Shown: positions 4,549-6,982 of the stretch, piece by piece
Layout: each line of letters opens with the position of its first letter
Position numbering within the stretch: position 1 is the first letter of the stretch
DNA from: Kordia antarctica
Lineage (GTDB): Bacteria > Bacteroidota > Bacteroidia > Flavobacteriales > Flavobacteriaceae
DNA length: 64,000 bases
NCBI RefSeq assembly: GCF_009901525.1
Contig: NZ_CP019288.1
Location: 1,116,001-1,180,000, forward strand
Direction: 5' to 3'
Notes under the pieces: generated by a model
The model's input: the letters and a program-made list of their open reading frames with translations, nothing else
Told to the model about the DNA's origin: nothing
Database searches by the model: none
Made by a program: the position numbers and the translations under genes

Positions 4549-4676
4549 GCGTCATTCTGAACTTGATTCAGAATCTCATTATCTTGATTTTCAATGATTA
4601 TGGGAAACCGAATCAAGCCTGTCTTGAGCGACAGACTAAAGGTTCGGTTTGACGTAAATTATACTTTTCAGACAGC
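4549..4676. repeat. Dispersed CGTCATT-family intergenic repeat
   Basis: The 331-bp gap 4491-4821 holds the serA terminator and this element. It begins GCGTCATTCTGAACTTG and ends GACGT...CTTTTCAGACAGC; the end is shared in inverted form with the element at 28295-28460, which begins with GCTGTCTGAAAAG. No gene is seen in the gap. The rest of it is AT-rich leader for the DUF937 gene. Confidence 0.6.
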
Positions 4677-4821: not shown

Positions 4822-5496
4822 ATGTCTGGAATTTTAGATTTATTAAATAGTGATTTGGGAAAACAAATCATTGGTGGAGTGAGTAATGAAGTTGGAGAAG
4901 ATCAAGGAAAAACAGCTGGTGTTTTGAGCATGGCTTTACCTGTATTAATGAGTGCAATGAAAAGGAACGCAAGTACTCCTCAAGGCGCAGAAGGGTTGAA
5001 TAAAGCATTAGAAAACAAACACGATGGAAGTATTCTAGACAACCTAGGAAGTCTATTTGGCGGCGGTGTAAACCAAGAAGTTAAAAATGATGGAGACGGG
5101 ATTTTACGTCACGTTTTGGGAGACAAAAGACAAAATGTAGAAAAAGCTATTGGAAGACAGTCTGGAATGGATGCTTCCTCTATTGCAAATATTTTAAAAG
5201 TTGCGGCACCAATATTAATGGGTGTTTTAGGAAAACAAAAACGTCAACAAAATGTACAAAGTTCTGGAGGAATTGGAGATTTATTGGGCGGATTGTTAGG
5301 TGGCGGATCATCAAACCAACCGCAACCAGCCGCAGAACAAAGTTTTCTTGAATCAATCTTAGATGCTGACAATGACGGAAGTGTTATGGATGATATAGCT
5401 GGAATGCTTTTCAACAGTGGAAACAACGATAAAAAAGAAGGAAATAGCGGTGGCGGACTTGGCGGATTGCTAGGTGGACTTTTCGGAGGAAAATAG
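4822..5496 (+). CDS. DUF937 domain protein
   Basis: A 224-residue protein whose first 150 residues match the DUF937 pattern: SGILDLLNSDLGKQIIGGV, then two helical repeats around MALPVLMSAM and VAAPILMGVLG. The C-terminal third is Gly/Ser-rich, with LLGGLLGGGSS and a terminal GGGLGGLLGGLFGGK, and includes an acidic calcium-loop-like DADNDGSVMDD at about residue 182. No signal peptide is visible. The biochemical role of DUF937 is not established. The gene stands alone and is followed 26 bp later by a strong hairpin terminator. Confidence 0.85.
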   Translation: MSGILDLLNSDLGKQIIGGVSNEVGEDQGKTAGVLSMALPVLMSAMKRNASTPQGAEGLNKALENKHDGSILDNLGSLFGGGVNQEVKNDGDGILRHVLGDKRQNVEKAIGRQSGMDASSIANILKVAAPILMGVLGKQKRQQNVQSSGGIGDLLGGLLGGGSSNQPQPAAEQSFLESILDADNDGSVMDDIAGMLFNSGNNDKKEGNSGGGLGGLLGGLFGGK

Positions 5497-5522
5497 TAAT
5501 ATCGCTCACAAAACATACTAGT

Positions 5523-5554
5523 AAAAGCATTGACGAAAGTTGATGCTTTTTTTT
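5523..5554 (+). terminator. Hairpin terminator after DUF937 gene
   Basis: Arms 5523-5534 and 5539-5550 form a 12-bp stem (two G-U pairs) closed by a GAAA tetraloop, followed by a T run. It lies 26 bp after the stop codon of the DUF937 gene and immediately abuts the thioredoxin-like remnant. Confidence 0.85.
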
Positions 5555-5556
5555 AG

Positions 5557-5727
5557 ATAGTAGACCACATCTATAAAGAACAAAACGATTGGTGTATGCT
5601 GCAAGGAATGAGTTTTACACCAGTTTTATTAGTTAACAATCATACACTTCCAGAAATGTATGAAGCATATAATCTAGAATTTTTTATAAATGACTTAAAA
5701 GAAGATCCCTTTTTCAAAGAAGTATAA
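5557..5727 (+). pseudogene. Remnant of a thioredoxin/VKOR-type protein C-terminus
   Basis: An open frame of 56 codons with no start codon at its upstream end, bounded upstream by an in-frame TAG at 5554-5556. The translation contains NDWCMLQGMSFTPVLLVNN and then LPEMYEAYNLEFFINDL. This resembles the last part of the thioredoxin-like domain found in vitamin K epoxide reductase/C39-peptidase proteins of Bacteroidota peptide-export clusters, where TP followed by an xxxVNG strand and L/IP precedes a terminal helix. The N-terminal part is missing, so it is most likely decayed. It directly precedes a GG-leader peptide gene. Family reading is from memory of the pattern and is moderate. Confidence 0.5.
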
Positions 5728-5829
5728 TTCTTTTTATTTATAAAATTTAAAACACTTATTTGTTCTATGGAAAAACCGTAATAAACTCCTATTAATAAGC
5801 TTTAAATTAGTAATCTAAAATCACATATC

Positions 5830-6009
5830 ATGAAAAAAAAGAATCTAAACAGTTTACAATTATCAAAAGCAACGGTATCTAACCTGCATAAAAATGAAAT
5901 TTCAGGTGGGCTTCGTCGTACAGACTATCGTGTATGCAATGATACTTACAACTCAAGAGAGCGTTGTAAAACCAATGAAGTGGATTTCCAAACACGTCCA
6001 ATTTGCTAA
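5830..6009 (+). CDS. RiPP-like precursor peptide with double-glycine leader
   Basis: A 59-residue ORF. The leader (residues 1-27) reads MKKKNLNSLQLSKATVSNL then HKNEISGG, which fits the Bacteroidota natural-product leader pattern of L-x-L-x-K-x-x-I/V-S-x-L followed by a GG cleavage site at residues 26-27. The 32-residue core has three cysteines (36, 46, 59), several Thr/Ser residues and many arginines. It has its own downstream terminator. The upstream neighbour is a remnant of a thioredoxin-like gene of a type seen in such clusters. No modifying enzyme or C39 exporter is in the window, so any maturation must be encoded elsewhere. Precursor status is inference. Confidence 0.65.
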   Translation: MKKKNLNSLQLSKATVSNLHKNEISGGLRRTDYRVCNDTYNSRERCKTNEVDFQTRPIC

Positions 6010-6032
6010 AAAATTAATTTACGAATTGAAAG

Positions 6033-6059
6033 AGCGAACTGTACTAGTTCGCTTTTTTT
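6033..6059 (+). terminator. Hairpin terminator after peptide gene
   Basis: Arms AGCGAACT (6033-6040) and AGTTCGCT (6046-6053) with a 5-base loop, followed by a run of seven T. It supports the peptide ORF at 5830-6009 being a separate transcription unit. Confidence 0.85.
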
Positions 6060-6087
6060 ATGTCAAGACTTTGCTAGACACTCTAAT

Positions 6088-6333
6088 TTACTCTTTATCA
6101 GATTTCGCTCTGTGAATTTCAATCCAAACGATAGACAAAAGACTAGCTATACAAATTAAGCTAAACCCAATTATTACAGCCTTATGTTTTTCCAGTATTG
6201 CAGTAGATGAAATACCATTATTGTAAGAACTAGGAAGTTGTGTTGAAAAATGATAAAAACTACTAAAAGTTATCACTACTGTAACAACCAATAAAATCTC
6301 CAAAATATCTAATCGTGAAAGTTTTTTAAGCAT
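6088..6333 (-). CDS. Small two-helix membrane protein
   Basis: An 81-residue ORF with two hydrophobic stretches (about residues 10-28 and 52-71), a short Ser/Asn-rich loop between them and a charged tail (HRAKSDKE). It is convergent with the peptide gene and 28 bp from its terminator. I do not recognise a family. An immunity or export accessory role is conceivable because of position only; nothing in the sequence shows it. Confidence 0.5.
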   Translation of the reverse strand: MLKKLSRLDILEILLVVTVVITFSSFYHFSTQLPSSYNNGISSTAILEKHKAVIIGFSLICIASLLSIVWIEIHRAKSDKE

Positions 6334-6547
6334 GTCAAAAAATGTTTTTAATTAAAAAATAAAAATTTACTTAAGTGTTTCTTTAAAGATAACTTTTAAA
6401 GTTTAACTAAAATTTTAGCACAGCAAAAAAACCACGAAAATATTTGAATCACTGAAAAGTATCAATCACTAATTCATATACACAGTTCACTCCTTACGAC
6501 TACAAAAAACCTAAAAAAATCGTATCTTTAATCAAACTGAATTTTTT

Positions 6548-6982
6548 ATGAAAAAAGTATTATTATTAATTGCTTGCGCAGGAATCATCGTCTATTCGTG
6601 CGCCGGACAAGAAAAAGCAATGACAAAGAAAACAGACGATACTACAAAAGTGTCCGACACAATTCGGATTTCTAGCGACGACGAAGAATATGACATTGTC
6701 ATTTTTGAGGCAGGTTTTAGCGCATGGATGACAAGTACTGCGCGTCCGCGTAATTACTATTCGCAACAATTTTTAGAAGCGAGAAATCAAGTCTATGTAA
6801 CGCAATGGAATATCCGTGTGCAACAACCTTCACGCTACAACAGTATGTGGTACGAGCAGGAAATTAATTATCGCTCCACTGTTGATTATGGCTACGAAGT
6901 CAATTACCAATTGTACTATTACTTTGTGTATTTTCAACAAAAGTACAATCAGAAGTTAGCTGCGTTTCCAGTTCGGATATAA
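6548..6982 (+). CDS. DUF6146 family lipoprotein
   Basis: A 144-residue probable lipoprotein: a hydrophobic signal followed by lipobox VYSC with Cys18. The mature part contains YDIVIFEAGFSAWMTSTARPRNYYSQQFLEARN-type sequence, an unusually aromatic protein with many Tyr and Trp residues, which matches the family I know as DUF6146 in Flavobacteriaceae. Function is unknown; it should sit in the periplasm or outer membrane. A DUF6787 gene follows with its own -7 box overlapping the short intergenic region. Confidence 0.75.
   Translation: MKKVLLLIACAGIIVYSCAGQEKAMTKKTDDTTKVSDTIRISSDDEEYDIVIFEAGFSAWMTSTARPRNYYSQQFLEARNQVYVTQWNIRVQQPSRYNSMWYEQEINYRSTVDYGYEVNYQLYYYFVYFQQKYNQKLAAFPVRI

Follow-up and report, generated by a model that had tools for sequence, protein, structure and literature searches.

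Kordia antarctica probably possesses a class I counterpart of the prochlorosins, in which a single LanBC would serve many scattered precursors in trans. One of these precursors lies in the 64,000-nucleotide stretch of the chromosome analyzed here (hereafter the window; positions 1,116,001 to 1,180,000 of contig NZ_CP019288.1), and the best reading of this gene is that it encodes a class I lanthipeptide precursor. It is one member of a dispersed family of at least 141 genes in a genome that holds one LanB and one LanC. Modification in trans by this single LanBC, with export by the C39-ABC transporter of the same locus, is the most economical reading of the data. On the scale of the genus, we consider rather likely a Kordia-wide combinatorial class I lanthipeptide system, in which one split LanB and one LanC would modify about 120-150 or more precursors per genome in trans, and in which the genes of the precursors would be gained and lost from one intergenic slot to another, much as a mobile repertoire. 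A preliminary description of the gene, as an orphan precursor or the remainder of a decayed cluster, is partly supported by our analysis.

The precursor gene of the window

The open reading frame at positions 5830-6009 of the window (+ strand) is confirmed as a real gene and not a chance frame. Its 59-residue translation is MKKKNLNSLQLSKATVSNLHKNEISGG / LRRTDYRVCNDTYNSRERCKTNEVDFQTRPIC, and its assignment as a precursor of the class I lanthipeptide type draws on this translation, on the NF038153 match and on the family of at least 141 members in the genome. Read directly from the sequence, the leader (residues 1-27, 5830-5910) carries at residues 9-19 LQLSKATVSNL, an exact LxLxKx5L motif, and ends in GG at residues 26-27, the Bacteroidota type of leader that the preliminary description had recognized. 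The 32-residue core (5911-6006) contains 3 Cys, 6 Arg and 4 Thr, with 5 Ser/Thr in all, in agreement with its earlier characterization as Arg/Thr-rich with three cysteines. In core numbering, T4-C9, S15-C19 and T28-C32 are possible Ser/Thr-Cys pairs, and the S-x3-C and T-x3-C pairs are retained in a paralogue and in relatives from two other Kordia genomes (G005 and G007).

NF038153, the NCBI model of class I lanthipeptide leaders, which is independent of the leader alignment built here, matched residues 1-23 with 22.5 bits (E 9.6e-5) and its curated cut-off of 22 was narrowly passed. Our own leader model gave 55.8 bits, the window ORF being part of its training set. At E<=10 the window precursor had no other match in NCBIfam, and solely PF14406 (Bacteroid_pep) in Pfam, with 14.8 bits, below the gathering score of 25 bits; no Nif11-type leader and no rSAM-target model, TIGR04149 included, matched at this threshold. 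The genome-wide search with NF038153, in which 150 of 154 candidates were scored, did not list the window gene, unlike the direct scan. The two overlapping ORFs, 5894-6115 (+) and 5879-6001 (-), start without any LxLxKx5L-type leader.

The start codon is preceded (5817-5829, +) by a run of A about 10-13 bases upstream of the ATG and by AT(C/T) immediately before it, a context found family-wide. Compared with 274 background ORFs of at least 250 aa (first ATG taken), the 141 family members had A at -12 in 90% of cases (background 55%), A at -3 in 85% (36%) and C or T at -1 in 94% (57%). A search for a promoter common to the family, at which the sigma factor encoded with LanBC might act, gave no clear motif beyond this A-rich context and TTTATAA-like AT words. 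Downstream of the gene, an intrinsic terminator with an 8-bp stem, a 5-base loop and seven T is found at 6033-6059 (+), so the 59-residue ORF has a terminator of its own, as had been proposed; the palindrome scan gave this palindrome on the - strand only, and the seven T after the stem-loop make it a + strand terminator.

The core, which the preliminary description did not recognize, is not unique. Core ends of the type TYNSxxxCKTNEVDxxTxPIC, looser in some cases, are common to it, to a paralogue at a distance of 4.1 Mb (genome positions 5,263,776-5,264,000) and to relatives found in 7 of the 10 other genus genomes; the window core is shorter than that of the paralogue by about 15 residues. 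The relatives, counted among 13 loci newly brought from these genomes, were two each in G001, G002, G004 and G010, with others in G005, G007 and G008. Against the paralogue, of the 22 codons of the core tail (stop included) 7 had changed synonymously and 2 nonsynonymously (dN 0.074 and dS 1.04 by NG86, stop left out), versus 10 and 10 in the leader, indicating that the core tail is held more tightly than the leader here. Among the loci of four relatives (L111-L114), only that of G007 has a neighbour gene in common with the paralogue. Beside the paralogue we observed a 193-aa protein (L035:9474-10055) that presumably resembles a Y1/REP-associated transposase.

Synteny in the relatives places the window gene in a variable slot (5497-6547) flanked by two genes that are conserved in Kordia, one at 4822-5496, which we take to be DUF937-like, and one at 6548-6982, coding for 144 aa and presumably lipoprotein-like. 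In G002, G007, G009 and G010 the slot between both flanks contains no leader ORF. G001 has three other precursors on the window-gene side of the 144-aa gene, in a stretch that ends before the far flank, and G003, G004, G005, G006 and G008 have no leader ORF in the stretches fetched, which end short of the far flank. As a sign of transposition at the window gene, flanking direct repeats were just short or imperfect. Two other features were seen nearby. Shortly before the precursor, an ORF of 43 aa (5596-5727, +) is similar to the C terminus of a K. antarctica protein of the C39/VKOR/thioredoxin type (30% over 33 aa; E 4.8e-6 when compared with this single subject; Pfam gave no match) and is perhaps the remnant of a peptide-processing gene. 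Besides, the 27-base stretch GTCATTCTGAACTTGATTCAGAATCTC (4551-4577) is a dispersed repeat, found exactly in five other genome stretches examined.

The dispersed family and its cores

The genome consists of one contig of 5,500,985 bases. With the window peptide as query, 74 places were found in it, and the genome-wide NF038153 search mentioned above listed 71 places, 20 of them over the cut-off. An alignment of 60 of the 74 listed leaders, all from the K. antarctica genome, gave at least 139 genome matches at E<=1 (150 of 235 candidates scored). When the model built from it was applied to 1978 ORFs of 35-200 aa, 141 scored at least 10 bits, the control maxima being 7.6 bits among 1978 reversed and 7.2 among 1978 shuffled ORFs. 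The scores of the training leaders are inflated because the model was built from them, and no fewer than 81 of the 141 lie outside the training set. The figure of 141 is a lower bound because the scan covered just 13.7% of the genome (755,575 bases), in stretches chosen around earlier matches and the window.

A relaxed form of LxLxKx5L was present in 132 members and the strict form in 72, against means of 9.7 and 0.7 after shuffling. Cut sites were assigned by a simple pattern, and the single member without one was excluded from the core counts; the leader ends in GG in 127 of the remaining 140. Among the 60 aligned leaders NF038153 matched 32, NF038158 3 and TIGR04149 1 (E 0.0049). The mean identity over all pairs was 0.46 for the leaders and 0.23 for the cores, the latter figure being inflated by cheap end gaps.

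With genes linked at 5 kb, the family occupies 83 places, single genes making up 50 of these, and its members are on both strands (71 on -, 70 on +). Their median distance to lanB is 0.9 Mb and only one of the 141 lies within 60 kb of it. Neighbouring members with starts less than 1 kb apart numbered 49, versus 3.6 expected under uniform placement, and therefore tandem growth and dispersal both occur. We infer that precursor genes are duplicated, lost and moved to other intergenic slots, and that new products arise in this way, the leader being conserved and the core able to vary.

Cys made up 11.7% of the residues in the cores, 0.11% in the leaders and 0.50% in background proteins, and Thr stood at 11.2% in the cores versus 5.9%. 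At least two Cys were found in 131 of the 140 cores, fewer than two in 9 and none in 2, while 137 had a Ser/Thr upstream of a Cys. We analyzed the spacing between these residues against 500 shuffles with the Cys positions fixed. Ser/Thr were in excess at -4, -5 and -6 of Cys (z 3.6, 5.2 and 4.4) and showed no such excess at +4, +5 and +6 (z -1.0, -1.5 and -1.5). With near-duplicates removed (91 cores less than 40% alike) the values were 3.8, 2.8 and 5.0 upstream and -1.6, -1.4 and -1.0 downstream. This one-sided spacing is what would be expected of thioethers rather than disulfides. There were in addition an excess of Ser/Thr at +2 (33% vs 20%, z 8.0; 5.9 on the 91 unlike cores) and deficits at +1 (z -4.6; -3.2 on the 91) and at -2 (z -3.1); rings of 4-6 residues alone leave the excess at +2 and the deficit at +1 unexplained.

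A second GG-leader family, of the type MLKNISNLxxVLxKxEQxxIxGG and with mostly Cys-rich cores, was also noticed; a loosely defined pattern gave seven cases in the stretches scanned (genome positions 233519, 783051, 1271644, 1271858, 2785208, 4893325 and 5314555).

The LanB/LanC/C39 locus and its relatives

The preliminary description had asked for LanB/LanC-like or radical SAM genes in the rest of the genome. The genome holds one Lant_dehydr_N (the PF04738 search gave one) and one LANC_like match (PF05147), that is, a single LanB and a single LanC, together with a radical SAM gene close to a second C39 exporter. Three C39 matches were found, of which two are strong, at 3733751 and 2728430; the preliminary description had tied its reading to a leader-family match and to a C39 exporter somewhere in the genome, and both are present. 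LanB, LanC and the best C39 share one locus (L031), 2.6 Mb from the window gene. It was thus rightly said that modification genes are absent next to the window precursor, which differs in this from the usual class I clusters with LanB/LanC beside the precursor. A decayed cluster as the main reading was rejected, LanB and LanC being present once each in the genome and both elsewhere. As for the two options first offered, service in trans is probable, but neither a lone orphan nor a decayed cluster fits a dispersed family of this size.

The order of genes in the locus is a sigma-70-like factor, a TPR protein, LanC (405 aa), the N part of LanB (751 aa), its C part (301 aa), an AraC-type regulator, HlyD and C39-ABC. 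LanC, Lant_dehydr_N, Lant_dehydr_C, HlyD and C39-ABC were recognized by Pfam, as was the TPR protein, which we presume to be anti-sigma-like as well. LanB matched NisB with E 2.4e-24, retaining RCTPFGLF, and the PDB chain 9g04_A, titled thiopeptide-type bacteriocin biosynthesis domain protein, with E 4.8e-51. LanC retains LSHG, WCYG and CHG, as its alignment to a structurally characterized LanC-like protein showed; these motifs would provide zinc ligands. The reference sequences of minus-strand proteins lacked the start Met. No LanM was found, the sole LANC_like match of the genome lying in an open frame of 407 aa, less than a fused LanM would need. The second C39-ABC exporter (L033) has a Radical_SAM match of 59.9 bits two genes away, and no LxLxKx5L-type leader ORF was found in this locus.

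The sigma factor, TPR protein, LanC, both LanB parts, AraC and HlyD appear in the same order in 11 of 11 genus genomes, with LanB identities of 87-95%; C39 is also in the locus in 8 of them, the stretches of the other three ending at HlyD. Each of the ten relatives has 2-5 leader-type ORFs of at least 8 bits in the LanBC locus, and K. antarctica has one weak member there (13.9 bits). Directly beside its lanB lies a leader-type copy without an in-frame ATG (L031:13041-13124, genome 3740040-3740123, - strand), at the place where G005, G009 and G010 keep an ORF.

We have examined 60 relatives for the joint presence of enzyme and leader. LanB was found in 17, and leaders in 15 of these 17 and in 0 of the 43 without LanB; two LanB genomes had no leader match. 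Outside the genus the figures were 4 of 6 LanB genomes and 0 of 43 others. In all 11 genus genomes LanB occurs exactly once, and the leader matches number at least 120-130 per genome, figures mostly capped by the scoring of 130 candidates. The four LanB genomes with leaders outside the genus have 1-5 leader matches, each with a leader ORF at most 5 kb from LanB. The leader alone was searched for in 296 evenly sampled genomes of the order, with scoring limited to 26 candidates in each, and 10 besides K. antarctica had 1-5 matches. Among the best 80 of at least 540 confirmed LanB loci, 60 hold a leader ORF of at least 10 bits and 20 hold none, in a count made without a background set, with a few weak leader ORFs and some stretches of just 3-6 kb. 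A whole-genome leader search in 30 of the genomes carrying these 80 loci, with 150 candidates scored, gave at least 150, at least 150 and 120 matches in three Kordia and 0-18 in the 27 others, the next below Kordia being Leptobacterium flavescens (18), Aquimarina sp. AU474 (17) and Dokdonia pacifica (17). These three, with Aquimarina aggregata and a Lacinutrix sp., are LanB genomes at an intermediate level of 15-18 leader matches (loci L159, L163, L179, L170 and L154).

Mechanism, alternatives and known systems

In the mechanism that we propose, the LxLxKx5L leader would be bound by the only LanB of the genome, split into its 751-aa N and 301-aa C parts, which would dehydrate Ser/Thr of the core; the only LanC would then join these residues to Cys, in most cases 4-6 positions further on, in (methyl)lanthionine rings. 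With the HlyD adaptor, the C39-peptidase ABC exporter of the same locus would cut after the GG and secrete the ring-bearing core, and this identical set of enzymes would serve about 140 precursors spread round the chromosome. That the products are secreted peptides of competition or signalling is a guess. The 2.6 Mb between the window gene and LanBC count against this reading, as does the second C39 near the radical SAM gene, which could take some members.

The scattered peptides could instead be GG-leader bacteriocins, unmodified or disulfide-bonded and released via C39, with LanBC modifying only the members of its own locus. Two strong C39 exporters are available, disulfides are possible in Cys-rich cores, and leader ORFs do occur in the LanBC locus of 11 of 11 genus genomes (one, weak, in K. 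antarctica). However, the leader has the LanB-associated motif and is confined among the 60 relatives to LanB genomes, the locus-linked members match the same leader model as the others, and the one-sided spacing of Ser/Thr 4-6 residues before Cys does not suit disulfides, so we regard this explanation as unlikely.

It is highly improbable that the radical SAM enzyme encoded near the second C39 exporter introduces thioether or other cross-links into the Cys-rich peptides, despite the proximity of these genes and although a published classifier assigned to Kordia rSAM-modified peptides along with lanthipeptides, with an ambiguity that affects Cys-rich precursors generally according to the available text (PMC11118758). 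The window precursor has no rSAM-target match at E<=10, TIGR04149 matches one of the 60 leaders against 32 for NF038153 and 3 for NF038158, and the locus has no such leader ORF. We give equally little credence to the idea that most dispersed copies are leader-bearing junk, functionless decayed duplicates. The variation of the slot among relatives and the lanB-adjacent copy without ATG would agree with it, but ORF, start context, GG and Cys are retained, with at least two Cys in nearly all cores, the core tail shows mainly synonymous changes against the paralogue, and 120 or more leader matches recur in every one of the 11 genus genomes.

Modification in trans by a single LanBC has its closest parallel in the prochlorosins and synechococsins, class II lanthipeptides with 29 precursors for ProcM and 79 for SyncM, scattered in the genome, as described in the text available (PMC10783134). 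As in the prochlorosins, Kordia would have one enzyme and many scattered precursors with a conserved GG leader and a variable core, the link between enzyme and substrates being in Kordia our inference. The prochlorosins have a Nif11 leader and LanM, whereas Kordia has an LxLxKx5L leader, a split LanB plus LanC, no LanM found and at least 141 precursors. If the Kordia-wide system is true, no lanthipeptide enzyme in the literature surveyed would have a larger natural set of substrates, as far as the available texts go.

Among Bacteroidota, the combination of LxLxKx5L, GG and C39 has been described in class I lanthipeptides (Walker et al., 2020; PMC7268733), and the leader motif, GG, C39 exporter and LanB/LanC are features that they have in common with the Kordia set. 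In its available part, that work mined within seven genes of LanC and noted that prochlorosins escape such a search; unlike those LanC-near lanthipeptides, the Kordia precursors are nearly all far from LanBC. Our data suggest that mining around LanB/LanC finds just one or two of the about 140 precursors here. The pinensins of Chitinophaga are class I lanthipeptides borne in a cluster. Compared by description, they are Bacteroidota lanthipeptides like those of Kordia, but differ in being cluster-borne; they are named in the available parts of PMC7268733 and PMC9248904.

Within the genus, a LanA/LanB/LanC cluster with one LanA named was noticed before in Kordia algicida OT-1 (Marsh et al., 2010; PMC3091789), the scattered members not being reported in the part available. 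The RiPP richness of Kordia is already published: a study in Microbiome in 2024 (PMC11118758) named Kordia as RiPP-rich, reported as many as 176 precursors for one genome of the Bacteroidota and supposed that distant or tolerant enzymes may act on lone precursors in general. The available text differs from the finding here in having no LanB count, no dispersal and no tie to one LanBC, and that of PMC10734526 concerns clusters. We found no report tying the Kordia precursor set to one LanBC in the literature surveyed, a search that lay mostly outside subscription papers and preprints.

Substrate-tolerant enzymes with many partners underlie the engineering of peptide libraries, the well-known case being the class II ProcM. 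LanB enzymes are glutamyl-tRNA-dependent. If our reading is true, a class I LanB/LanC pair meeting about 140 unlike cores would be a second, chemically different platform, and it would make it possible to study what use a bacterium has for ring peptides in such numbers.

For the K. antarctica IMCC3317T genome, the available text of its description gives nine antiSMASH clusters, one of lanthipeptide type among them (PMC7477175). Six of the precursors found here (genome 804333-912106) are inside the 225-kb NRPS-PKS cluster of that work (802,427-1,027,059).
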